Source of the DNA: Bythopirellula goksoeyrii
GTDB lineage: Bacteria > Planctomycetota > Planctomycetia > Pirellulales > Lacipirellulaceae
Reading direction: 5' to 3'
NCBI RefSeq assembly: GCF_008065115.1
Contig: NZ_CP042913.1
Span: 5,405,257-5,469,256, forward strand
Length of the DNA stretch: 64,000 nucleotides
Under the pieces are notes generated by a model. The model made no database searches. It was not told the DNA's origin and saw nothing but the letters and a program-made list of their open reading frames with translations. Of the stretch, positions 9,650 through 23,194 are shown piece by piece; within the stretch, counting starts at the first letter, position 1; every line of letters starts with the position of its first letter. The translations under genes and the position numbers were made by a program.

Positions 9650-10636
9650 CTACTGTGATCGCAAAAGTTTTCCCAGTTCTTCATTGATCACTGATAATCT
9701 TTTTCTGGGTGCTTCAGCGGATTCTTGAAAACGAACGGCCTCCAGAATATTCAGAATGAAATACATGCCTTTATAAATTGCGATGCGAGCAGGGTCACTA
9801 GTTTTCACTAAGTTCTCGCCGTAGCCTTGCCAAAAAGTCTCTGGCACACCGTAAAGAATCAAGACCCAATCACTAGCCGGGTCGCCCCAAAAAGCCCGCT
9901 CCGCATCGAAGACTGCCTTGATGTGAATATCCGCACCTGCTCCGTCAATAATGACATTTCTTGGCCAGAGATCGCCGTGGAGCAGTTTTGCCGTTTTGAC
10001 CTGGTCCAATGTCTGAAAAAAATACGGCAAGTAGCTGCGATAAACCTCGACCTCTTCACAGAAGACACCGACTCGCCGGCAATCTTCGATCATGCCTTCC
10101 ACATTGTCAGCAATAAACTGAGACCAGCGACTAAAACCTTGCAAAGGGGCAGGATAACCAAACTGCTCTCCGCAGCAATTGTGCAATACTCTGGCAAACG
10201 CCCCCAGTTGCTTCCACAGCTCGGCGTTCTCTGCTTCAGAGAGTGAGGAGATCACCTCATGCCAGAGCCTGCCCTGAATCCAACGCTGCAAAAAGGCATC
10301 CCGGCCGTCTATTTTGAAAAACGACAGATACTCAGGAATCAACGGACTGAGCGATTGCAATTGCAGGCAGATCGATTGCTCCCGCTGCATCAAAGAACGT
10401 TCACAATAAAAGACATCGGCACTCCCTGTAGGTGCCACCTTTAAGATGTAGGCATTTTGTGATGTGTCAACGCGGTAAGTATTATTGAACAGGCCAGCGT
10501 TCAGTTCCGTCACCTTAGTAATCTTTTCGTGCGCTAGCACATCGTTGAGCTGCAACAAGAGTTCCTGCTGATTGACAGGCTGTTGAAAGGCTGCCCCATC
10601 CCGTGCTATTTGATGTATTTCCACAGTCCGGCCCAT
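9650..10636 (-). CDS. APH/choline-kinase family phosphotransferase
   Basis: Predicted small-molecule kinase of 328 aa from the aminoglycoside phosphotransferase fold. The N-lobe has a glycine-rich strand (LNAGLFNNTYRV) and an ATP-binding lysine (AYILKVAP). The catalytic Brenner motif is LLHGDLWPRNVII and the metal-binding segment is VFDAERAFWGDPASDW. These sites look intact, so activity is likely. Homologues of this type commonly act on fructosamines, choline or amino sugars, and resistance enzymes are only one branch; the substrate here is unknown. It is a single gene between repeat-rich spacers, convergent with the small gene at 9286. Confidence 0.8.
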   Translation of the reverse strand: MGRTVEIHQIARDGAAFQQPVNQQELLLQLNDVLAHEKITKVTELNAGLFNNTYRVDTSQNAYILKVAPTGSADVFYCERSLMQREQSICLQLQSLSPLIPEYLSFFKIDGRDAFLQRWIQGRLWHEVISSLSEAENAELWKQLGAFARVLHNCCGEQFGYPAPLQGFSRWSQFIADNVEGMIEDCRRVGVFCEEVEVYRSYLPYFFQTLDQVKTAKLLHGDLWPRNVIIDGAGADIHIKAVFDAERAFWGDPASDWVLILYGVPETFWQGYGENLVKTSDPARIAIYKGMYFILNILEAVRFQESAEAPRKRLSVINEELGKLLRSQ

Positions 10637-11359
10637 TGGATCTTTCTATCAAGGGTTCGATCGGAGACCAATCGAAATGTGTCGTTTTTATTGAATGGCT
10701 CTAGTTTAACCTGCTTCGGCGGGTCGCGGCATAAGGCACGAGTTAGAGTTTCTCCTCGTTTTTGGCCACCCGATCTGCTATACTGAACCTGCGTACACAT
10801 ACTATTCGCAGGCAGTCAAAAAGCGGCTTTCGGCCTCCATTACTGGAGTACCGCTTGCTGATGACTGATCGCCAACCACCACTAACAGGAGTCATTGCCG
10901 TGATATTGAGGGTATCCGGAATTTTCACTTACTGCATTCAGCGGCAAAGTGAACTGTCATCCCGAGGTACTCCGAGGGATCTGACCAGATTTCTCGGGGT
11001 ACCTCGAAATGACAAGTATCGAGTACCCAGATCCCCTCATATGACATTAGCAATGCGCCCACAACTGGTTGCCAACGCACGCAAGCGAAGAGCAATCTGC
11101 TCGCCGAGAGGGCTCAGCACAGAGTACGATGAGGCTACTCAGACGGGGAGTTTTTTTGTAAAAACTCCAAAAATGCCGAGGCAGACAAATCCTCCTAAGC
11201 CTTTGCTTGCCAACGTGTTGGAGCGTGGCCGGGTGCCGAAATGAGGGTTAATTTTTTTTTGTAGAATTGGTTTTTCACAAAAAGCAGCGTTCCGCGGGTG
11301 TCATCTGAACTACCCCAAGGTCGCCATTGCGCCGAGGAAATAGGAGCCTAGGAAACAGG
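10637..11359. other. intergenic region with R1 copy 2 and an A/T hairpin
   Basis: No real gene is seen; the open frame across 10762-11244 runs through a repeat. R1 copy 2 occupies 10955-11014. A perfect short hairpin (GGAGTTTTT / AAAAACTCC) is at 11147-11168. A long T-run (about 11254-11263) lies upstream of anmK and could be part of its promoter region. Confidence 0.55.
10955..11014 (-). repeat. R1 palindromic element core, copy 2 (inverted)
   Basis: Core from TGTCATCCCGAGGTACTCC to GGTACCTCGAAATGACA, inverted relative to copy 1. A degenerate left outer repeat (GGTATCCGGAATTT) is present at 10911; the right one is not evident. Confidence 0.8.
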
Positions 11360-12433
11360 ATGAGCACGATTGCAGCCGGATTTATGAGTGGAACTTCCTG
11401 CGATGGCGTGGATGTTGCCGTGCTTGATACGGACGGCATGAACAAGGTCGCAGTGCGCGCTGGGTTGACCCACCCCTACGACGCGGCACTTCGCGCTCGA
11501 CTGTTGCAAGCTTCACAGCAAGAAATACCCTTGGCAGACCTGCTCCGCTTGGAGCGGGATATTTCGTTGCATCATGTTCGAGCCTTCCAACTTCTCGCGG
11601 ATGCCGATCCTTCGCTACGCTCCGAGGTTGAGATTCTGGGATTTCACGGACATACCGTGCGACATATTCCTGAAGAAGCGCTTACCTTGCAGATCGGTAA
11701 TCCATGGATATTGGCCGAGGAGCTTGGCATTGCTGTGGTTGCCGATTTTCGGCGTTGTGACTTGGCGGCGGGTGGAGAGGGAGCTCCCTTGGTTCCCCTC
11801 TATCATCAAGCACTGTTTGCCAACGAAGAATTGCCGACGATGGTGTTGAATCTAGGTGGCGTAGCGAACGTCACCTGGCTGGGTGATTGTGGACAAATTA
11901 TTGCTGGTGACACGGGTCCTGGTTGCGGGCTCATTGATGCCTGGGTTCAGAAGATGGTCCAACTTCCCTTTGACCGCGATGGCAAACTCGCCTTGTCTGG
12001 TACGGTGAACAACGAAGTACTCGAGGCTGCACTTGCTGCGGACTTCTTTTCTCGCTCGCTCCCCAAATCAGCCGACCGCTATGACTTTGATCACGTCGAT
12101 GTCTCGGGATTGAGCGTAGCAAATGGTGCGGCAACCCTCTGTGCGATTACCGCTGAAGCTGTTTATCGTGCAGCGCAGAAACTACCGAGCATGCCCAAGC
12201 AGCTTTTGGTCACAGGCGGAGGAGTCCATCACCCGCTGATCATGCGGTTTCTGCAAGAGCGATTCGGAGAAGTCCGAAGTGTAAGCGAACGAGGAGTCGA
12301 TCCCGACTCGCTCGAAGCGCAATGCTTTGCCTGGCTAGCCGTCCGGCACATGAAAAAGCTACCGCTGACGATTCCCGAAACAACGGGCTGCGCGAGACCG
12401 CTCGTCGGCGGTGTGACCGTGCATGCCAAGTGA
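11360..12433 (+). CDS. anmK: anhydro-N-acetylmuramic acid kinase
   Basis: Phosphorylates 1,6-anhydro-MurNAc, with hydrolysis of the anhydro ring, to MurNAc-6-phosphate in peptidoglycan recycling. The 357-aa protein has the family signature GFMSGTSCDGVDVAVL at the N-terminus, GFHGHTVRHIP, the sugar-kinase phosphate block LNLGGVANVTWL, DTGPGCGLIDAW with the Asp expected to act as base, and VTGGGVHHP near the end. The ATG at 11360 follows AGGAAACAGG and begins right at the ATP-binding motif, so it is preferred over the upstream ATT/ATG-like starts. It converges with murK (15-bp gap). It belongs to the surrounding MurNAc island, and a divergent paralogue lies at 19868. Confidence 0.93.
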   Translation: MSTIAAGFMSGTSCDGVDVAVLDTDGMNKVAVRAGLTHPYDAALRARLLQASQQEIPLADLLRLERDISLHHVRAFQLLADADPSLRSEVEILGFHGHTVRHIPEEALTLQIGNPWILAEELGIAVVADFRRCDLAAGGEGAPLVPLYHQALFANEELPTMVLNLGGVANVTWLGDCGQIIAGDTGPGCGLIDAWVQKMVQLPFDRDGKLALSGTVNNEVLEAALAADFFSRSLPKSADRYDFDHVDVSGLSVANGAATLCAITAEAVYRAAQKLPSMPKQLLVTGGGVHHPLIMRFLQERFGEVRSVSERGVDPDSLEAQCFAWLAVRHMKKLPLTIPETTGCARPLVGGVTVHAK

Positions 12434-12448
12434 AGTTCAACTACTCGG

Positions 12449-13405
12449 TCAGGCGCTCGACTGACTAGTGATTTCGCACATCGCTACTTTGAGGCAACCA
12501 TTGACAGGATCAGTAACCAATTGCACTGAATCAGGAGACACCCCGCGTGCAGCCAACTCACCGAGCAACGCTTCTCGAATCAATTGGCTCCCACTCAGCA
12601 CCCCCCCGGCGAGCGCCAGAGGAAATCGCATTCCGAGCTCGAGCTGTTTCGCTGCAGCGACGACGAGCGCGGCTAGATGACCTGCAGCCTGGGAGACGAT
12701 CTCAAGCGCAGCGGTATCTTGTTGGTCTGCAGCGATGCTTACCAGGTCGGCCAGTCCCGCAATTGCCGACCGTACGTCGCCACATCGTGCAAGTGAGGTC
12801 AGCATCTCTCGCGGATCGGATATCGATAGCCGATCGAGGATTGCCTCCAATAGCTGAGTCGCAGGCGAGCGACCATCACTCGCCAGTGATGCAGCTCTCA
12901 AGGCAGCTTGCCCCAGCCAGAAAGCGCTCCCTTCATCGCCGAACCAATACCCCCAGCCACCCACAACAGCCGTCTTGCGATTGGAATCCGCGGCAAACGC
13001 TACAGACCCCGTCCCTGCGATCAACGCCACGCCGCTTCCATCAGGAGTGCCCGCTGCCAGTACCGGCAGAGCGTCATGCACAATCGAGAGCTTGTGTGCG
13101 ATGCGGTTCTCAGTGTTCCATTGTTGTAGAAGGGATTGCGCTTCTGGTCGGCCAGCACCGGAGAGCCCCAAGACGGCGAGCGACACAGATTCCGGTGCCA
13201 CCTGGGCATCGGACCACGCTTGATCGAGAGCCTCAGCAAGATTCTCCAGGGCCTTTTCAGGCCCAACGGCTTTTAGATTGGAACTACCCGACTGTCCTCG
13301 CCCGACGACATGAAAAGAACCATCAGGAACGACTTGCGCCAGGCAGGCAACGGTCTTGGTCCCCCCACCATCTATTCCAAGGATTAGATTGTGATTTTCA
13401 GACAT
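12449..13405 (-). CDS. murK: N-acetylmuramic acid / N-acetylglucosamine kinase (BadF/BcrA ATPase family)
   Basis: Cytoplasmic amino-sugar kinase of 318 aa, expected to make MurNAc-6-P and/or GlcNAc-6-P. The actin-like fold motifs are present: LILGIDGGGTKTVACLA (phosphate 1), LGLSGAGRPEAQ, GVALIAGTGSVAF (phosphate 2), and VVGGWGYWFGDEGSAFWLG, which is typical of GlcNAc/MurNAc kinases. It is the second gene of an operon with murQ (24 bp apart, same strand), matching the murK-murQ pairing known from Clostridium and Tannerella. Context therefore favours MurNAc as a substrate, although sequence alone cannot separate MurK from plain GlcNAc kinase. Confidence 0.85.
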   Translation of the reverse strand: MSENHNLILGIDGGGTKTVACLAQVVPDGSFHVVGRGQSGSSNLKAVGPEKALENLAEALDQAWSDAQVAPESVSLAVLGLSGAGRPEAQSLLQQWNTENRIAHKLSIVHDALPVLAAGTPDGSGVALIAGTGSVAFAADSNRKTAVVGGWGYWFGDEGSAFWLGQAALRAASLASDGRSPATQLLEAILDRLSISDPREMLTSLARCGDVRSAIAGLADLVSIAADQQDTAALEIVSQAAGHLAALVVAAAKQLELGMRFPLALAGGVLSGSQLIREALLGELAARGVSPDSVQLVTDPVNGCLKVAMCEITSQSSA

Positions 13406-13429
13406 GACCCCTTGCTCCCAATTGTTATC

Positions 13430-14338
13430 TCAATCGGGATCGTTTTCCAAGGCTTGGCGCAAGTGGCCTCCATTGGCTTGCAACCGCTGGCGGGCCTCGT
13501 CCGGCGAGAGGTTCAATCGTTGAGAAACGATCGCGACTTTGAGTTCTCCACCACACTGATGAAGCTGGATCGCCGCATCTTCTGGAGAGATCATTGCCAG
13601 TTTAGCAAGAATGCGTCTACTTCGTTCGGTGAGTTTGGTATTCGTGGCCTGCAAGTCAACCATGAGATTCCCATAGGTTTTTCCGAGCCTCACCATGGCA
13701 CCGGTAGAAAGCATGTTGAGCACCATCTTGGTAGCCGTGCCTGCTTTCATCCTTGTCGAACCGCTCAGGATCTCAGGTCCCACGACTGGAGAAATCGTAA
13801 GATCGGATCGGGTGTTGATCGTCGCATTATGATTGCAACTGAGCCCAATTGCGTACGCACCCTGACTGCGTGCATACTCCAACGCACCAGCGACGTAGGG
13901 AGTACGGCCACTCGTAGCGATCCCAACAACAACGTCGTTGCTACAGAGTTCAATGTTTTTCAAGTCTTGTTTGGCAAGTTCTGGTGAGTCTTCAGCCCCT
14001 TCGACAGCTCGCAGGACCGCAGTTGGGCCGCCCGCGATAATCCCGACGACTTGAGAAGGGTCAGAATTGAAAGTGGGAGGACACTCTGCAGCATCCAAAA
14101 TACCCAGCCGACCCGAAGTACCCGCACCAATGTAGATGAGTCTTCCACCGTGACGGAGGCGATGCGCGATGACCTCGATAGCTTTAGCAATCTGCTCTGA
14201 CTGCTGAGCGACGGCATCGGCGATCCCTGCGTCCTCAGAATTAATGAGCGCAACGATCTCGCGAGGGCTCAGGCTATCTAGGGCTTCGGAAGCAGGATTG
14301 CTTAGCTCGGTAGTAAGATGTTCCAACATAATTCTCAT
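13430..14338 (-). CDS. murQ: N-acetylmuramic acid 6-phosphate etherase
   Basis: Cleaves the lactyl ether of MurNAc-6-P to GlcNAc-6-P and D-lactate in the cytoplasm. At 302 aa it has normal family length. The SIS-domain signature IYIGAGTSGRLGILDAAECP is intact, followed by GPTAVLRAVEGAED with the catalytic Glu, GIATSGRTPYV, and GPEILSGSTRMKAGTATKMV with the conserved Lys. The C-terminus carries the UBA-like helical tail (LNLSPDEARQRLQANGGHLR). It heads the murQ-murK operon and is transcribed divergently from the SSS transporter across a 197-bp spacer. An alternative ATG is three codons in at 14329. Confidence 0.95.
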   Translation of the reverse strand: MRIMLEHLTTELSNPASEALDSLSPREIVALINSEDAGIADAVAQQSEQIAKAIEVIAHRLRHGGRLIYIGAGTSGRLGILDAAECPPTFNSDPSQVVGIIAGGPTAVLRAVEGAEDSPELAKQDLKNIELCSNDVVVGIATSGRTPYVAGALEYARSQGAYAIGLSCNHNATINTRSDLTISPVVGPEILSGSTRMKAGTATKMVLNMLSTGAMVRLGKTYGNLMVDLQATNTKLTERSRRILAKLAMISPEDAAIQLHQCGGELKVAIVSQRLNLSPDEARQRLQANGGHLRQALENDPD

Positions 14339-14401
14339 TGTAATCTACGACTGTAAAGATAAGTAGCTATCGTGCGCTAAAACGAGAAAGAGTTGCGCAT
14401 T

Positions 14402-14420
14402 GTGATGTTGGTAGCATCAC
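14402..14420. promoter_or_regulatory. candidate operator in the murQ / symporter divergent spacer
   Basis: A short perfect inverted repeat, GTGATG and CATCAC separated by 7 bp, lies between the two divergent units of the MurNAc island. It could bind the XylR-like regulator, but this is a guess from position. Confidence 0.3.
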
Positions 14421-14535
14421 GCTTTGTTTCATAATCCACCTTGGTACTATAGACTTATCAGCGGCAGCAGCCAGCGAACTGGGGTGGTAGTTCTACCCAG
14501 ACTTCACTAACTCCTACAATCGCCGAAATACCCCT

Positions 14536-16032
14536 GTGCAACTCCTGATTCCTCCTCTCGATGCGGCGATCGTCGTAGGCTATCTCGCCTTCTCCATCAT
14601 GCTAGGACTATGGGTGGGCCGGGGCCAGAAAAGCACCTTAGATTACTTCCTGGGCAATCGGTCCCTTCCAACTTGGACAGTCTTGCTATCGATAGTCGCC
14701 ACGGAAACTAGCACGGTCACTTTTCTCAGCATCCCCGGCTTTACATTTGCCCAAGATGGAGACATGCGCTTTTTGCAGATCACCTTCGGCTATATTGTTG
14801 GAAGATTTCTCGTTATCTGGATACTGCTTCCTCGATATTTTGAAGGTCAGATCTTCACGGCTTACGAGGTCCTCCAGCAAAGATTCGGGATCGTTTCCCG
14901 CCGCGTGACGTCAGCACTCTTCCTGGTCACGCGCAACTTGAGCGATGCATTGCGGTTGTATTTGACGGCCTTGGCGTTGCAACAAGTCGTGGGACTTGAG
15001 CTAACTCACTGTATTGTCTTGCTGGGAGTCGTGACGATCGTCTACACCTTCTTGGGTGGAGTCAAATCGGTCGTATGGAACGACTGCCTCCAGTTTTTCA
15101 TTTATATTGTCGGCGCGCTGGTCGCTCTCTGGCTGATGATCACACGCCTGCCCGGCGGATGGGAGCAACTCACTCAATTTGGCGAGGCCACTGACAGACT
15201 TCGCATCTTCGATTTTGATTTGAGCCTGACCAAACCTACGATGACGTTTTGGTCGGGACTGATCGGTGGTATCTTCCTCACGGCAGCGACTCATGGCACG
15301 GACCAACTCATGGTGCAACGCTATTTGAGCTCTCGTAGTCAGCGGTCGGCAAGTTGGGCTTTGGGTCTGAGCGGTTTCATTGTTTGTCTTCAGTTTGCCT
15401 TGTTTCTCTTTATCGGTGTCGCTCTCGCGTGTTTTTATCGAGAGCACCCTCCAGAAGTGCAGTTCGGGGCTGGTGACGGAGATAAAGTATTTGCCCATTT
15501 TATCGTGAACTACTTGGGGACCGGCCTGGTTGGACTCACCCTCTCAGCCGTGTTTGCCGCGGCGATGTCCACACTTTCTAGCTCCCTCAACTCGTCGGCG
15601 ACTGTGCTGGTTCAAGATATCTTTCTGCCGCTCACCAAGACGGAACTTGCACCGACACAGCAGTTGTGGATCAGTCGAATAGCAACCGCGGGATTCGGGA
15701 TTCTCCAGATCGGCATCGCTATTGCTTCCTATCAAATCGGTGCCACTGAGAGTACCGTCAGCAGCGTTCTCAGCATTGCTAGTTTTGCCCTGGGACCGCT
15801 CCTCGGGTTGTATTTGTTGGCTGTGTTTACGAATCGCGTCCACCAACGTGCCGCTCTGACTGGGTTTTGTGTCGGCGTGATCTCGATTTCAGCCATCGCA
15901 TTTACCACAAACCTCTACTGGGCATGGTACGCAGGTGTAGGTGCCTTGATTACTCTATCGTCTGGATATCTTGCAAGCTTCTGCATCGCCGAGACACCTC
16001 TCAGTGATGCCTATTCGGAGAATTCACAATGA
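14536..16032 (+). CDS. sodium:solute symporter (SSS family), probable MurNAc uptake
   Basis: Inner-membrane transporter of 498 aa with about thirteen hydrophobic segments. SSS-family features include YFLGNRSLPTWTVLLSIVAT, VYTFLGGVKSVVWNDCLQ and the later FAAAMSTLSSSLNSSAT segment, which carries the Ser/Thr-rich sodium-site helix. Translation appears to start at GTG 14536. Its stop overlaps the start of the AmpC-NamZ gene by 4 bp (ATGA), so the two form a coupled unit. The gene order suggests it imports MurNAc or a MurNAc-containing sugar released by NamZ. As I recall, Tannerella forsythia uses a non-PTS transporter (MurT) beside murK-murQ for this purpose. The substrate remains an inference. 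Confidence 0.85.
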   Translation: MQLLIPPLDAAIVVGYLAFSIMLGLWVGRGQKSTLDYFLGNRSLPTWTVLLSIVATETSTVTFLSIPGFTFAQDGDMRFLQITFGYIVGRFLVIWILLPRYFEGQIFTAYEVLQQRFGIVSRRVTSALFLVTRNLSDALRLYLTALALQQVVGLELTHCIVLLGVVTIVYTFLGGVKSVVWNDCLQFFIYIVGALVALWLMITRLPGGWEQLTQFGEATDRLRIFDFDLSLTKPTMTFWSGLIGGIFLTAATHGTDQLMVQRYLSSRSQRSASWALGLSGFIVCLQFALFLFIGVALACFYREHPPEVQFGAGDGDKVFAHFIVNYLGTGLVGLTLSAVFAAAMSTLSSSLNSSATVLVQDIFLPLTKTELAPTQQLWISRIATAGFGILQIGIAIASYQIGATESTVSSVLSIASFALGPLLGLYLLAVFTNRVHQRAALTGFCVGVISISAIAFTTNLYWAWYAGVGALITLSSGYLASFCIAETPLSDAYSENSQ

Positions 16033-18413
16033 ACATCGTATGCTTTCGATTCCTTACCTTTAGTCTGCTGGCAAGCTGTGCACTCCTTACCGATGCCTTG
16101 CCAAGAAGCCTTGCCTTCGCCGAAACCGCTGAGTTACCGAGAAAGTCACCTGCGGAACTCGGTCTCCAGGCCGATCAGCTCGACCGGATCGATGAACTGG
16201 TGGCAGCTGAAATCGAGAAGGGAAACTTACCCGGTTGTGTCGTGATGATAGGACGCCGCGGAGGGATCGGATTTGCGCGGGCCTACGGCCATCGCCAACT
16301 CGAGCCTACGAGCGAAGAGATGACGCTCGACACGGTGTTTGACCTTGCTTCGCTTACCAAGCCCCTGGCCACGGCAACAAGTATCATGAAACTAGTGGAA
16401 CGTGGACAGGTGAGACTGCGGGAACCCGTGGCGACTTACATCCCTGAGTTCGCCCAAAACGGTAAGAACTCGATCACCATCGAACACCTCCTTACCCATC
16501 AAGGAGGGCTCATTCCCGATAACCCGTTGGCGGATTATGAACATGGGTCCGAAGAAGCATGGAAAAACATCTGGGAGTTGGCTCCCAGGAATCCCGTCGG
16601 GACGAAGTTTGCCTACACTGACGTAGGATTCCTGGTTCTTGGTCAAGTGATCGAGCGCGTGACAGGCAAGGACGTTGCTACCTTTGCGCGTGAGAATATC
16701 TTTGAGCCGCTTGGCATGTCCGAGACAGGGTATCTACCGGAGGAGGAACTGCGAGCTCGCGCAGCCACCACCGAAAAACGAGATGACGAGTGGCTGCGCG
16801 GCGAAGTGCATGATCCTCGCGCCGCACTACTCGGAGGAGTCGCAGGGCATGCAGGCCTGTTCTCCACGGCTGGCGACATTGCCAAGTATGCACAAATGAT
16901 CTTGGACGCCGGCAAGGTCAACGGTTCGCAATTGTTCAGCCCGCTGACGATTGCCGAGATGGGTCGGCGGAGAAATGTTGACGGAAACGAGCGTGCCCTG
17001 GGTTGGGATAGTTTGAGCAAATACTCCAGCAATCGGGGAGAATTGTTCAGCGACAAAGCCATTGGACACGGCGGCTTCACTGGGACTGCCCTCTGGATCG
17101 ATCCCGAGCTTGATCTCTTCGTGGTTTTCTTGTCCAGCCGATTACATCCCGATGGCGAAGGAAGTGTTAATCCGCTTGCAGGACGAATCGGCACGATTGC
17201 CGCCGCTTCAATTGATGCAAAGGAGTCGGAAGCGAATGACACTGTTGTTTCCTCTTCATCCTCCCCGGCGGACGACACCAAGAATACGCTGCTGGGAATC
17301 GATGTATTGGAGAGAGATCAGTTCGCTCTGCTCAAAGGTCGCAGAGTGGGTCTGATCACCAACCATACGGGACTCAACAGCGCAGGAGAACGCACGATTG
17401 ATTTGTTGCATGCAGCACCGAATGTAGAATTGATCTCCATTTTCAGTCCCGAGCATGGATTGCAGGGAAAGCTCGACGAGCCCAATATATCTGATACCCG
17501 CGACGAAGCGACGGGGCTTCCTGTTCACAGCCTCTATGGAGAATCTCGGAAACCAGATGCCAAGCAATTAGAAGGTATTGATACCCTCGTGTTCGACATC
17601 CAGGATATTGGAACCCGCTTCTACACCTATATTTCAACGATGGGCTTAGCCCTCGAAGCCGCAGGGGAACATGACTTAAAGTTTGTGGTGTTGGATCGTC
17701 CCAATCCACTCGGCGGTGTGCTCGTCGAAGGCCCTGTTCTCGACTTGGACAATAAATCGTTCGTTGGCTTTCACGAAATTTCAGTGCGTCATGGCATGAC
17801 CATGGGTGAACTGGCGCAAATGTTCCAAGCGGAAGACAAACTCGATGTCGATCTCCAAGTTGTGAACATGGAACATTGGTCTCGCGATCAGCATTGGGAT
17901 CAGACAGGTTTGGTTTGGACGAATCCGTCTCCGAATATGCGAAGTCTTACTCAGGCTCTGCTGTATCCTGGAATCGGACTGCTGGAAACCACCAATCTCT
18001 CTGTGGGGCGAGGAACCGATACGCCGTTCGAAGTCATCGGTGCGCCGTGGATCGACGCAACGAAGCTAGCTCAGTTTCTCAATCAGCAAAACATGCCAGG
18101 CGTAACCTTTGTGCCGATTCGCTTTACTCCTCGTGAAAGCAAGTTCGCGAAGGAAGCTTGCGAGGGGATCAATGTCATCGTCGTAGATCGCCAAGCGTTT
18201 GAGCCGGTACGTACTGGGTTGGTCATTGCGTTGGCATTGAGAGAACTCTTCCCACAAGACTGGGATATGGCCCGCTACAATCGACTTTTGGCAAATGATC
18301 AGGTCTACTCGGCGATTTCCGAGGGTACGACGATTGAGCAACTCAATGAACTCATTGCCCCCGCCCTGGAGGATTTCAAATCGCGCCGACGAGAGTTCTT
18401 GATCTATCGCTAG
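16029..18413 (+). CDS. namZ: exported fusion of AmpC-type serine hydrolase and NamZ exo-beta-N-acetylmuramidase
   Basis: A 794-aa secreted protein with a signal peptide (LTFSLLASCALLTDALPRSL). Residues about 45-390 are a class C beta-lactamase/AmpC-like domain with Ser108-x-x-Lys111 (SLTK), Tyr196 (YTD) and HGGFTG in the place of KTG. Such domains act as esterases or amidases on muropeptides. After a Ser-rich linker (VVSSSSSPADD), residues about 415-794 form a DUF1343/NamZ (GH171) domain with LITNHTGLNSAGERT, FSPEHGLQG and VFDIQDIGTRFYTYIST. Bacillus subtilis encodes the two parts as separate neighbours (ybbE and ybbC). NamZ removes terminal MurNAc from glycan ends. Here the fusion is coupled to the SSS transporter. 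No NagZ homologue was seen in the window. Confidence 0.9.
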   Translation: MNIVCFRFLTFSLLASCALLTDALPRSLAFAETAELPRKSPAELGLQADQLDRIDELVAAEIEKGNLPGCVVMIGRRGGIGFARAYGHRQLEPTSEEMTLDTVFDLASLTKPLATATSIMKLVERGQVRLREPVATYIPEFAQNGKNSITIEHLLTHQGGLIPDNPLADYEHGSEEAWKNIWELAPRNPVGTKFAYTDVGFLVLGQVIERVTGKDVATFARENIFEPLGMSETGYLPEEELRARAATTEKRDDEWLRGEVHDPRAALLGGVAGHAGLFSTAGDIAKYAQMILDAGKVNGSQLFSPLTIAEMGRRRNVDGNERALGWDSLSKYSSNRGELFSDKAIGHGGFTGTALWIDPELDLFVVFLSSRLHPDGEGSVNPLAGRIGTIAAASIDAKESEANDTVVSSSSSPADDTKNTLLGIDVLERDQFALLKGRRVGLITNHTGLNSAGERTIDLLHAAPNVELISIFSPEHGLQGKLDEPNISDTRDEATGLPVHSLYGESRKPDAKQLEGIDTLVFDIQDIGTRFYTYISTMGLALEAAGEHDLKFVVLDRPNPLGGVLVEGPVLDLDNKSFVGFHEISVRHGMTMGELAQMFQAEDKLDVDLQVVNMEHWSRDQHWDQTGLVWTNPSPNMRSLTQALLYPGIGLLETTNLSVGRGTDTPFEVIGAPWIDATKLAQFLNQQNMPGVTFVPIRFTPRESKFAKEACEGINVIVVDRQAFEPVRTGLVIALALRELFPQDWDMARYNRLLANDQVYSAISEGTTIEQLNELIAPALEDFKSRRREFLIYR

Positions 18414-18439
18414 CACGGTTTCCGCTGCGTCTTGTCTTT

Positions 18440-19612
18440 CTATCGCCCATGCATTTGCTTGCGAAACGCAAGTGGCGTTTGACCGAAACGCTTGCGAAAG
18501 GCGACGCCGAACTGGGTCGTCCCTGCATAGCCACAAGCGTCCGCAATCGCCTCGACCGAGAGATCCGATTGCGAAAGCAACTCTTTGCCTCGTTCGAGCC
18601 GCAGACGGCGAATTTCCTCGGCTGGCAAACGACCGAAATACTTCTTGAACTGCAATTCCAGAAAACGCCTCGAGACGGGCACCTCGCGCAGGACATCCTC
18701 GACGACGATTCCCTTGTAGGCATGGGCCTGAATAAAACGCATCGCCTTGGTGATCATCACATCGTCAATCGCTAAGGCATCGGTTGATTGTTTGCCGATC
18801 ACACAGGTGGGGGAGATCAGTCGCGGCTGGGCAGGTGGGGATTCGCCTTTCAGCATGGCGTCTAGCATAGCGGCAGCTTCGTAGCCAATTCGCTGGCTTG
18901 CTACCAAGACGCTCGACAGCGGCGGAGTACTGAGCCCGCAAATAAGCTCATCCGTCTCGGCGGCTAAGATTGCGACCTCATCAGGAACAGAGATCCCTTC
19001 CATGCTGCATATCTCCGTGAGCTCTCGGCCACGACGGGCATCGACAGTAAAAATCGCCACCGGGCGCGGGAGGTGACTGAGCCACCGATGCACGCGAGTA
19101 TGCTGTTCATCGCGCCCGATGCGGCGAGTCACTCGATAGCCGGGCTTGTACACATGGCAGGTGAGATTCTGCTCATTCAATTCCGCGACAAATGCTTTCT
19201 CACATTCCTTGGAATACTCATTGCTCGGTGGTGCGTAATAGGCAAAGTGTTTCAGGCCGCGTCCTTGAAAGTGGCTTAGCGCCATCTTGGCCCTTTCCGC
19301 TTCATTGGTGCGAATTTGACCCATCCCCGGAAGTTCTGGGTAAACATCATCAACATTGACTGTCGGCAGGCCCGTTTCAGAGATCTCCTCAAGTTGCAGT
19401 GGCGTACTGATGCGAGCGATGATACCGTCGCCACGCCAGCGGTCCGGTAACGACCAACGTCGACTGTAATCACGTGGGTCGGTGAGCAAATTCCAAGGAC
19501 CGAATTTGCTGCTATAGTCGGCGATGCCTTGGACTACGCTTCGTCCCCAGCTGTAATCCGTTTCGACGAGGACGGCGACTTCGAGCACGCGTATCTTGGT
19601 TGATTTGGGCAT
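18440..19612 (-). CDS. XylR-type transcriptional regulator (sugar-binding sensor plus AraC DNA-binding domain)
   Basis: About 390 aa from ATG 19612; a TTG at 19642 would add ten residues without a ribosome site. The N-terminal two thirds resemble a LacI/periplasmic-binding sensor fold (VAVLVETDYSWGRSVVQGIA, FAYYAPPSNEYS, LSSVLVASQRIGYEAAAML). The last 100 residues are an AraC-family double helix-turn-helix (EDVLREVPVSRRFLELQFKK, IADACGYAGTTQFGVAFRKR). Planctomycetes use many such regulators for sugar genes. It lies convergent to namZ and divergent to the anmK-like gene at 19868. A MurNAc-type sugar is the likely effector from context; that is an inference. Confidence 0.85.
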   Translation of the reverse strand: MPKSTKIRVLEVAVLVETDYSWGRSVVQGIADYSSKFGPWNLLTDPRDYSRRWSLPDRWRGDGIIARISTPLQLEEISETGLPTVNVDDVYPELPGMGQIRTNEAERAKMALSHFQGRGLKHFAYYAPPSNEYSKECEKAFVAELNEQNLTCHVYKPGYRVTRRIGRDEQHTRVHRWLSHLPRPVAIFTVDARRGRELTEICSMEGISVPDEVAILAAETDELICGLSTPPLSSVLVASQRIGYEAAAMLDAMLKGESPPAQPRLISPTCVIGKQSTDALAIDDVMITKAMRFIQAHAYKGIVVEDVLREVPVSRRFLELQFKKYFGRLPAEEIRRLRLERGKELLSQSDLSVEAIADACGYAGTTQFGVAFRKRFGQTPLAFRKQMHGR

Positions 19613-19760
19613 GGGTAGTATTTCGGTTTGGTGATGTCGCAACTATCGTTGGAGACAACTATTAAGTACAGTCGCTGTTCTATTGGCACGACACTTTCCA
19701 GTAACATCTCCTAGGGATCAGAATCCCCGGGAACTTAAATCTACGCTATTATACCACAAC

Positions 19761-19787
19761 ATGCGCAAAATGTCGAAATTTATGCGC
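19761..19787. promoter_or_regulatory. candidate operator between the XylR-like regulator and anmK2
   Basis: Imperfect inverted repeat GCGCAAAAT / ATTTATGCGC around GTCGA in the AT-rich divergent spacer (19613-19867). Position and symmetry suggest a binding site for the adjacent regulator. TGCGCA also occurs at 14395-14400 in the murQ spacer, which is weak support for a shared site. Confidence 0.35.
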
Positions 19788-19867
19788 TGTTTATCGGGCA
19801 TCGCATAGCCACTAATGGTAGACTTACAGATTAGGGTTCTGTCGATTCTCCCCACCAAAGGTGGTAA

Positions 19868-20953
19868 GTGCCTCGCTCCTCATTTACACGGTCCGTCGGT
19901 TTGACGAGCTCGTCTTCGGGCGACGGGGTGGAAGCTGCCATTATTGAGACCGACGGGCGGGACGAAATCCAGCCGCTCGGTGGAATTTCTTTGCCCTACG
20001 ATAGCCAACTTCGCTGGCGAATCCTGGAGGCGACCCAAAACGATTTGCCGACGACAGAGATCTTACGTCTCGAGAAGAAACTAACTCAGCACCATCTCAG
20101 CGCCTTCGAGTTATTAAAAGACACCTACCCGAAAGAAGTGGCTCAGGCAACCATTTTGGGATATCAAGGTCATACGCTTCGACATATTCCAAGTGAAGGT
20201 CTGAGCCTGCAGATCGGCAACGCCTGGCAACTTGCTGAAGGGACCGGACTCCCCGTGGTGAGTGACTTCCGCCGGCACGACATGGCAATTGGTGGCCAAG
20301 GTGGTCCGTTGGGGGCCATGTTTCACTGGGCTCTAATGGCTCGCGAGCCACGTCCAGCCATGATGCTTAGCTTAGGATCAGTAGCAACGGTGACATGGCT
20401 GAGCAAAGATGATGAAGTCATTGCAGGTGACACCGGCCCCGGTGTGGCCTTGCTGAATGAGTGGGTGCAAGAAATGGCCGAGTTGCCCTACGATCGTGAA
20501 GGTCGGATAGCAAGCGAAGGGACTGTCGATACGAAACTCGTTCAAGAAGCTTTAAAGTCACCGTTTTTCTCACGCAAATTGCCGAAGTCCGCCTCTCGCT
20601 ATGAATTCGACCACATCGATGTAGCCGGGCTGAGTGTCCCTGATGGGGCAGCCACTCTTTGTCAGATCACAGTCGAGTCCTTTGTACGAGCGGTCAAACA
20701 ACTTCCTGAACTGCCCGAAGAACTCTGGGTCACTGGCCGTGGGAGCGAACACCCCGTAATCAATCAAATGCTCGCCAAACATTTCAAGTCCGTGAAAAAC
20801 GTAAGCGAACGTGGGCTCAATCCACTCACCATGGCTGCCGAGTGTTTCGCTTGGTTAGCAGTCCGCCACATCAAAGGGCTGTCCATTACCACCCCAGAAA
20901 CTACAGGTTGCCCCAGTGCGGATTGCGCCGGTTTCATGACTTCGCCCCAGTAA
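19868..20953 (+). CDS. divergent AnmK paralogue, possible pseudoenzyme
   Basis: A 361-aa homologue of the anmK product at 11360, similar along its whole length (QIGNAWQLAEGTGLPVVSDF, KSASRYEFDHIDVAGLSVPD, NVSERGLNP). Several active-site signatures are altered. GFMSGTSCDGVD becomes VGLTSSSSGDGVE. The His of GFHGHT becomes Gln (GYQGHT). LNLGGVANVTWL becomes LSLGSVATVTWL, losing both Asn. GGGVHHP becomes GRGSEHP. The DTGPG motif with the presumed base remains. Either specificity has shifted or kinase activity is lost and the protein acts as a sugar sensor. Translation starts at GTG 19868. The regulator gene is divergent across 255 bp. An R1 element follows the gene. Confidence 0.8.
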   Translation: MPRSSFTRSVGLTSSSSGDGVEAAIIETDGRDEIQPLGGISLPYDSQLRWRILEATQNDLPTTEILRLEKKLTQHHLSAFELLKDTYPKEVAQATILGYQGHTLRHIPSEGLSLQIGNAWQLAEGTGLPVVSDFRRHDMAIGGQGGPLGAMFHWALMAREPRPAMMLSLGSVATVTWLSKDDEVIAGDTGPGVALLNEWVQEMAELPYDREGRIASEGTVDTKLVQEALKSPFFSRKLPKSASRYEFDHIDVAGLSVPDGAATLCQITVESFVRAVKQLPELPEELWVTGRGSEHPVINQMLAKHFKSVKNVSERGLNPLTMAAECFAWLAVRHIKGLSITTPETTGCPSADCAGFMTSPQ

Positions 20954-20994
20954 TGGTAATTGGACAACTGAGGATGTCTGGGAATTCTCTTTGC

Positions 20995-21055
20995 TGTCAT
21001 TTCGAGGTACTGGAAAGAAATCTGTCCAGATCCCTCGGAATACCTCGGGATGACA
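20995..21055 (+). repeat. R1 palindromic element core, copy 3
   Basis: Core TGTCATTTCGAGGTACT to ATACCTCGGGATGACA in the orientation of copy 1. A left outer repeat variant (GATGTCTGGGAATT, 20973-20986) is present; no right outer repeat is obvious. Confidence 0.8.
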
Positions 21056-21113
21056 GATCGCTTCACTGCTCCGTGATTCTTACGATTCACATCTTCTCAG
21101 CAGGAATCAAAGA

Positions 21114-23034: not shown

Positions 23035-23150
23035 GTGTCCGGGAATAGAACTCGTGAAAACCAGCGATCTGTCATCCCGAGGTACTCCTAGGGATCTGGT
23101 CAGATTTCTCGGAGTACCTCGAAATGACAGCAAAGTGAATTCCCGGACAC
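23035..23150 (-). repeat. R1 palindromic element, copy 4 (complete, inverted)
   Basis: Outer repeats GTGTCCGGGAAT (23035-23046) and ATTCCCGGACAC (23139-23150) enclose a core at 23070-23129 inverted relative to copy 1. Together with copy 1 it defines the full element of about 116-124 bp. Confidence 0.85.
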
Positions 23151-23194
23151 CTTCAATTAGTTCTAACAAGTCATTCTTCGCAGGGAGCATTGGC

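Follow-up and report, generated by a model that had tools for sequence, protein, structure and literature searches.

Gene content and layout of the island

This analysis concerns a cluster of genes for the predicted use of N-acetylmuramic acid (MurNAc) in the planctomycete Bythopirellula goksoeyrii, whose genome of 6,473,141 bp is a single contig. The cluster, here called the island, occupies positions 11360–20953 of a 64,000-nucleotide stretch of contig NZ_CP042913.1; this whole stretch is referred to as the window, and plain coordinates refer to it. Genes were called by listing open reading frames (ORFs), and families were assigned by Pfam and NCBIfam profile searches.

The first gene, anmK1 (11360..12433, plus strand), encodes a canonical anhydro-MurNAc kinase. 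It matched the NCBIfam equivalog at 403.8 bits, passing the cut-off of 352, and its motifs MSGTSCDG, NLGGVAN, DTGPG and TGGGVHHP are intact. On the minus strand lie the gene of a murK-like sugar kinase with a BadF/BcrAD fold (12449..13405; PF01869, 144.7 bits) and murQ, encoding MurNAc-6-phosphate etherase (13430..14338; TIGR00274, 386.9 bits, cut-off 302). A divergent region separates murQ from sss (14536..16032, plus strand), the gene of a sodium:solute symporter (SSS) family protein (PF00474 (SSF), 149.1 bits). Its stop overlaps the start of the next gene by 4 bp (ATGA at 16029–16032), the coupling that an earlier note on this DNA had described. That gene, bla-namZ (16029..18413, plus strand), encodes an AmpC-like hydrolase (PF00144, 236 bits) fused to a NamZ exo-beta-N-acetylmuramidase, both domains of which are present (PF07075, NamZ_N, 279.8 bits; PF20732, NamZ_C, 163 bits). 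The fusion protein looks exported, its signal sequence having been judged by eye.

The island ends with a second divergent pair. The regulator gene (18440..19642, minus strand) has TTG as its first codon, with an in-frame ATG 10 codons further, and its product combines a LacI-like sensor with an AraC-type helix-turn-helix (PBP1_XylR, Peripla_BP_3 and HTH_18; PF13377, PF12833 and PF22177). The last gene, anmK2 (19868..20953, plus strand), is an AnmK paralogue with altered ATP motifs, matching PF03702 at 236.9 bits and the NCBIfam kinase at 311.4 bits, below the cut-off of 352. All genes named in the earlier note were recovered in their places from the ORFs and the Pfam and NCBIfam matches.

Conservation in the family

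To place the island in context, 246 genomes of the order were sampled, 43 of them from the family of the window. An AnmK-family match was found in 86 of the 246 genomes, and MurQ above its curated cut-off in 82. Within the family, 33 genomes had an AnmK match, and their AnmK neighbourhoods were mapped by tblastn with proteins of the window and of Bythopirellula polymerisocia as queries. This gave 33 loci, one per genome (L062–L092, L049 from B. polymerisocia and the window), several of which are cut by contig ends.

The five genes anmK, murK, murQ, sss and bla-namZ occurred together in 18 of the 33 loci, a further three loci were without only the bla-namZ match, and eight held anmK and a regulator alone. 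The common gene order was regulator, anmK1, murK, murQ, sss and bla-namZ, with regulator and anmK1, and likewise murQ and sss, divergent. In all 21 loci with a mapped sss orthologue, the gene was beside or near murQ. Since the five-gene core is complete in more than half of the loci, murQ and namZ travel together, and their joint absence, which the earlier note had named as a possible refutation, is not the rule. In one locus (L091, genome G142) anmK1 is split over two ORFs in the assembly.

A predicted phosphotransferase-free MurNAc route

No match to the phosphotransferase system (PTS) EIIC family PF02378, the one PTS family searched, was found in the whole genome; as a control, the same profile matched in 7 of 14 genomes. 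This result and the five-gene core agree with the route proposed in the earlier note, in which MurNAc is used without a PTS by a conserved gene set.

The murK-like kinase has the catalytic Asp and a GGWG motif, both kept in its relatives, and its best solved relative is a MurNAc/GlcNAc kinase (GlcNAc, N-acetylglucosamine). The product of 12449..13405 is therefore a probable MurNAc (and GlcNAc) 6-kinase. The kinase gene itself was confirmed, and the name murK rests on context.

The nearest solved relative of the SSS protein is 5nv9, described as a 'putative sodium:solute symporter'. An Arg-x3-Asp-x2-Arg motif, on a helix that we take to be transmembrane helix 3 (TM3), is invariant in 21 of 21 orthologues. 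Its two arginines would fit a carboxylated sugar, and the protein is a candidate Na+-coupled MurNAc importer.

Two paralogous regulator–anmK pairs

A XylR-type gene was divergent to canonical anmK in 27 of 31 loci (L062–L092). A second pair, made up of a regulator and anmK2 (pair 2), was found 15 times in 14 genomes of six genera and was divergent in all 15 cases. Its usual neighbours are two GFO/IDH/MocA oxidoreductases, a second SSS protein (SSS2), an FAD oxidoreductase and GHL10 proteins, accompanied in the genome of the window and in B. polymerisocia by a DUF5009-type protein.

Phylogenetic trees set the two pairs apart. The anmK2 sequences (15 rows, support 100/100) were separated from canonical AnmK (30 rows, 100/100) after five of 50 extracted ORFs shorter than 300 aa had been dropped (G162, G190, two pieces of G142, and G222). 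In the regulator tree of 38 rows, the 25 pair-1 regulators came together with full support, and the pair-2 regulators lay outside their group. This tree was built without rows below 300 aa (L052, L071 and L080 among them) and without the B. polymerisocia copy, which was split over two sequence stretches. L004–L007 were excluded as duplicates of G127, G154, G218 and G158.

In the window there is no regulator 5' of anmK1; a pair-2 copy stands at the opposite end of the island instead. The mapping and the tree thus depart from the view of the island regulator as the usual companion of anmK1, as it belongs with anmK2 to a pair found in a different cluster in the rest of the family. The other pair-2 copy of the same genome (C1:197679-200277) does lie in the usual cluster (L009, G000:C1:188000-207900), which holds the AnmK2 copy, the regulator, two GFO/IDH/MocA oxidoreductases, SSS2, an FAD oxidoreductase, two GHL10 proteins and a DUF5009 protein and is an unassigned sugar pathway. 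In B. polymerisocia (L049) the MurNAc cluster and the pair-2 cluster are contiguous, and one protein that Pfam labels 'xylose isomerase-like' is encoded several kb away from the regulator–anmK2 pair.

The AnmK2 clade

All 15 AnmK2 ORFs are full-length. Of 126 columns invariant (at least 95%) in the canonical AnmK of the family, 12 are lost in AnmK2. Six of the 12 fall within three nucleotide motifs, to which 20 of the 126 columns belong (Fisher p 0.004); the motif boundaries are our own choice. We take GTS, GGxxN and GGG to be the phosphate-1, phosphate-2 and adenosine motifs, respectively; on this assignment none of the 15 sequences keeps the Gly of phosphate-1, the Gly and Asn of phosphate-2 or the Gly of the adenosine motif. 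The Asp of GDxGPG, aligned with Asp182 of Pseudomonas aeruginosa AnmK, presumably the catalytic residue, is kept in all 15.

Elsewhere in the protein, a good part of the sugar site is retained, and the invariant columns are kept on average at 94% in the QIGNPW..DFRR..GGxG stretch and at 75% in the HGHTxRH stretch. One His of HGHTxRH is kept in only 27% of sequences, the LIDAW Asp in 27% and a C-terminal Glu in 13%, and as judged from the alignment these values speak against a simple reading in which the sugar site is kept. The structure predicted from an eight-row alignment had a pLDDT of 81.5, and its best PDB matches were AnmK, with TM scores up to 0.88. Estimates of dN/dS were 0.03–0.06 for anmK2, where dS is near saturation, and 0.14 for anmK1, so selection on the AnmK2 clade looks purifying. 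These ratios and the full-length ORFs led to the rejection of a spare or decaying second kinase. The second anmK-like gene of the earlier note is thus present, and the altered ATP motifs and the score below cut-off argue against its being simply another kinase gene.

Instead, AnmK2 may act as a sensor, as a hydrolase or as a kinase with altered properties. Its most likely place is alongside the divergent regulator or in the oxidoreductase/GHL10 cluster that houses its relatives; the role of an ordinary ATP-dependent AnmK is less likely. One alternative is that AnmK2 has remained an active sugar kinase whose use of the nucleotide or phosphate donor is altered or whose substrate is another anhydro-sugar, in a pathway with the GFO/IDH/MocA pair and SSS2. 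The conserved Asp, the modelled AnmK fold and the usual neighbours (oxidoreductases, SSS2 and GHL10) are consistent with this, whereas the uniform replacement of the motif glycines and Asn is not; the alternative is plausible, with the odds somewhat against it. A further proposal, which we regard as rather unlikely, is that AnmK2 is a former anhydro-MurNAc kinase that has become an ATP-independent partner of the XylR-type regulator. By binding anhydro-MurNAc, or by opening its 1,6-anhydro ring with no phosphorylation step, it would set the regulon signal; the pair would have been duplicated as a unit, with one copy catalytic and one a sensor. The glucokinase regulatory protein, which is related to the MurQ family, offers a parallel.

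A direct repeat as candidate operator

A motif derived solely from 28 regulator–anmK1 regions (27 of the family and L008) scored a mean of 11.8 bits in 20 murQ–sss regions, compared with −2.0 (sd 1.1) in shuffled sequence; the murQ–sss region of L086 (2354 bp) was excluded from the 20. A direct repeat, TGCGCW-N15-TGCGCW, with a 21-bp period, is perfect in both divergent regions of the island. Candidate operator 1 (TGCGCT-N15-TGCGCA, 14373..14399, plus strand) lies between murQ and sss, and candidate operator 2 (TGCGCA-N15-TGCGCT, 19762..19788, plus strand) between the regulator and anmK2, each assigned by pattern match. The regulator, which the earlier note had tied to the island genes, would be linked to them through this shared candidate operator.

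At no more than one mismatch the repeat was found in 18 of the 20 murQ–sss regions and in 7 of the 15 between regulator and anmK2, compared with 0.8–0.9% of shuffles (0.8–1.2% when the regulator–anmK1 regions are counted in). These counts are partly circular, since the intergenic regions had been inspected before the pattern was set. The genome-wide test is therefore more independent. In the genome of the window the perfect repeat gave 13 strand matches (10 places) vs 1 for the reversed pattern, and in B. polymerisocia 17 (12 places) vs 1. Nine of the 10 places in the former genome were intergenic by a rule that admitted ORFs of at least 120 aa, longest first.

The site was present in 7 of 9 regions beside pair-2 regulators with a VPVSRR[FY]LE-type helix and in 0 of 6 beside regulators with diverged helices (g4, g5; Fisher p 0.007), so that regulator and site covary at the level of sequence. 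On the regulator strand, candidate operator 2 overlaps the −35 element of a sigma70-like promoter (11/12); the scan for such promoters was overall not above chance, with 3 found vs 5.0 expected.

Genes adjoining the repeat

All 10 perfect places in the genome of the window and all 12 in B. polymerisocia were inspected, together with chosen places, among the matches listed, in the other 18 genomes. In the genome of the window, two sites fall in the two regulator–anmK2 regions and one in the murQ–sss region. A fourth precedes alanine dehydrogenase by approximately 100 bp, its start being 128 bp ahead of the gene, and a fifth lies between a 1119-aa golvesin-domain protein and a gamma-glutamyltranspeptidase (GGT). 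Sites 6–9 adjoin exported-looking genes that are of PEP-CTERM or DUF1559 type or unassigned; one group among these shares an 18-kb stretch with GH25 and GHL10 genes. The tenth site is inside an ORF.

The perfect sites of B. polymerisocia recur at regulator–anmK2, golvesin–GGT and DUF1559 groups, the golvesin–GGT palindrome with a diverged spacer; its murQ–sss and alanine dehydrogenase (ald) sites have one mismatch each. Among golvesin homologues of five other genomes, four of six pass the Amidase_3 cut-off (L132, L133, L137 and L135:3745-6339) and two are below it. The contig of the MurNAc cluster in genome G111 also carries GHL10, MFS/BT1 permease and GH3 genes in a row, a GH25 gene, two golvesin-domain proteins and GGT, with sites among them.

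Proteins of DUF1559 type (pilin-like N-terminal methylation) and exported-looking proteins, PEP-CTERM or other, are encoded again and again beside the repeat (L125, L126, L130–L134, L136–L138). Elsewhere in the genome of the window (L096, G000:C1:1968006-1972193), GHL10, an AmpG-like permease (TIGR00901, 192.7 bits, cut-off 350) and GH3 stand in a row, likely an anhydromuropeptide recycling group away from the island.

A candidate peptidoglycan-utilisation regulon

The places of the repeat suggest a peptidoglycan-utilisation regulon. We read the island as the sugar branch of such a regulon in Bythopirellula and its planctomycete family, with a probability of roughly 0.68. NamZ would release terminal MurNAc from muropeptides outside the inner membrane, and the SSS protein would bring it in with Na+. 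MurK would convert MurNAc to MurNAc-6-phosphate, from which MurQ would yield GlcNAc-6-phosphate and D-lactate, with AnmK1 channelling anhydro-MurNAc into the same pool. The XylR-type regulator would bind the direct repeat through its AraC-type domain and sense a peptidoglycan sugar. NamZ activity, MurNAc import, the MurK and AnmK reactions and ligand sensing are all predicted here from families and gene context.

Several results weigh against this reading. On the enzymatic side, the catabolism that the earlier note had called complete holds as far as GlcNAc-6-phosphate and not beyond it, the NagA-like match lying elsewhere in the genome, outside the island, at 164.4 bits (cut-off 225.65); the substrates of the SSS protein and MurK are not fixed by sequence; and the residue ahead of the MurK catalytic Asp is His, compared with Thr94 in the MurK of Tannerella forsythia (TfMurK). 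For the repeat, besides the partial circularity of the region counts, only 5 of 28 regulator–anmK1 regions have it at no more than one mismatch, and of the 12 B. polymerisocia places seven are intergenic and five in predicted ORFs, two of these at ORF 5' ends. Nor does the repeat stand out in every genome, an expectation that was given up: over 20 genomes, perfect sites were above the reversed control in 10, equal in 1 and below in 9, all nine from other genera. Given this mixed result, the case outside Bythopirellula rests on the loci themselves. As to the adjoining genes, the one-mismatch site of the GH25 ORF starts 168 bp upstream, inside a doubtful 141-aa ORF; Amidase_3 had no match in the golvesin-domain protein of the genome of the window, nor in that of B. 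polymerisocia; and no site was found at the GHL10/AmpG-like/GH3 stretch of the genome of the window, where approximately 75 bp upstream of the first ORF was covered. Alanine dehydrogenase had a site at no more than one mismatch in the upstream regions of 4 of 30 genomes and was rejected as a family-wide regulon member.

The earlier note had left the choice between scavenging and self-recycling open. In the latter case the island would serve recovery of the cell's own wall, with NamZ and the symporter retrieving released MurNAc and AnmK1 taking anhydro-MurNAc from an AmpG/NagZ route. The GHL10, AmpG-like and GH3 genes in a row elsewhere in the genome are consistent with this, as is the G111 row of GHL10, MFS/BT1 permease and GH3 downstream of a site. 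However, the sites at GGT, at the golvesin-domain protein with its amidase-bearing homologues, at exported-looking proteins and at alanine dehydrogenase suggest nutrient use of the wall. The exported-looking peptidoglycan-related proteins near the repeat favour scavenging, and the GHL10/AmpG-like/GH3 group suggests self-recycling too. The two are not exclusive of each other, and self-recycling as the purpose of the island is given an appreciable chance that stays short of even.

It is less probable, and in our view unlikely, that MurK is mainly a GlcNAc kinase and that the symporter imports another solute, be it GlcNAc, a disaccharide, a muropeptide or an acidic sugar (sialic acid, for example). 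The sole NCBIfam sugar-kinase match of the kinase is NagK, at 122.1 bits, far under its cut-off of 370, and the position occupied by His has been tied to MurNAc selectivity in PMC10465942. These points leave room for another substrate, whereas the proximity of sss and murQ across the mapped loci, the candidate operator they have in common and the invariant arginines argue against one. An attempt to derive MurK specificity from the pocket residues gave no answer. Finally, it is highly improbable that AnmK2 is a duplicate in decay and that the operator pattern is a GC-rich word occurring by chance: the nine genomes with fewer perfect sites than the reversed control are in its favour, but the full-length ORFs in six genera, the low dN/dS (with anmK2 dS near saturation) and the predominantly intergenic sites of the genome of the window stand against it.

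Surroundings of the island

A palindromic repeat of approximately 67–100 bp flanks the island on both sides (10948–11014 and 20966–21070) and occurs again 2 kb further (23063–23158). It gave 49 strand matches genome-wide, many of which pair up as the two strands of a single place, and it occupies five places in the window. Upstream of the island, an APH/fructosamine-kinase-like small-molecule kinase is encoded at 9650–10636 on the minus strand (Pfam).

Comparison with known systems

We take ybbC of T. forsythia and Bacillus subtilis to belong to the NamZ family, and amiE (ybbE) to be AmpC-like. T. forsythia murTKQ is a known case of MurNAc use without a PTS, as described in PMC5388701, PMC7670621 and PMC10465942. 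As predicted for the island, the murTKQ/ampG operon combines PTS-free MurNAc import, MurK and MurQ next to ybbC. Its importer MurT is described as a novel family conserved in Bacteroidetes; the candidate here is an SSS symporter. In the same accounts T. forsythia has no predicted AnmK, whereas the island has anmK1, and control is by the hybrid two-component protein GppX, in contrast to the XylR/AraC regulator and candidate direct repeat here.

The B. subtilis cluster is murQ-murR-murP-amiE-nagZ-ybbC, amiE being formerly ybbE, according to PMC5061867. It likewise encodes murQ with ybbC and amiE. Its transporter is the PTS protein MurP, its regulator is MurR, and there is no anmK among its six genes as given there (PMC5061867). 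The AmpC-like and NamZ parts, fused here, are separate genes in B. subtilis.

AnmK1 shares its motifs with P. aeruginosa AnmK (PDB 3qbw/3qbx/4mo4/4mo5), which AnmK2 resembles in modelled fold and in the Asp182 equivalent, but not in the glycines and Asn of the nucleotide motifs. The regulator has the domain architecture of the Escherichia coli XylR type but differs in its pairing with AnmK paralogues and the TGCGCW-N15-TGCGCW repeat. A search of the open literature on planctomycetes and MurNAc, MurQ, AnmK or Bythopirellula gave no title describing this cluster, which is no proof of absence, and the lone planctomycete mention in the available part of PMC5061867 is the title of a reference. As far as the open literature shows, the SSS-type arrangement in planctomycetes, the operator with its regulon and the AnmK2 clade are new.

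If this reading is true, planctomycetes would gain a defined and regulated route for using bacterial cell walls, with an SSS-family protein as the candidate MurNAc importer and an operator that can be tested. It would also bring to light a conserved enzyme clade in which the ATP motifs are altered and each of the 15 cases seen has a paired regulator. Peptidoglycan sensing by free-living bacteria would then be testable with two DNA sites and two proteins.

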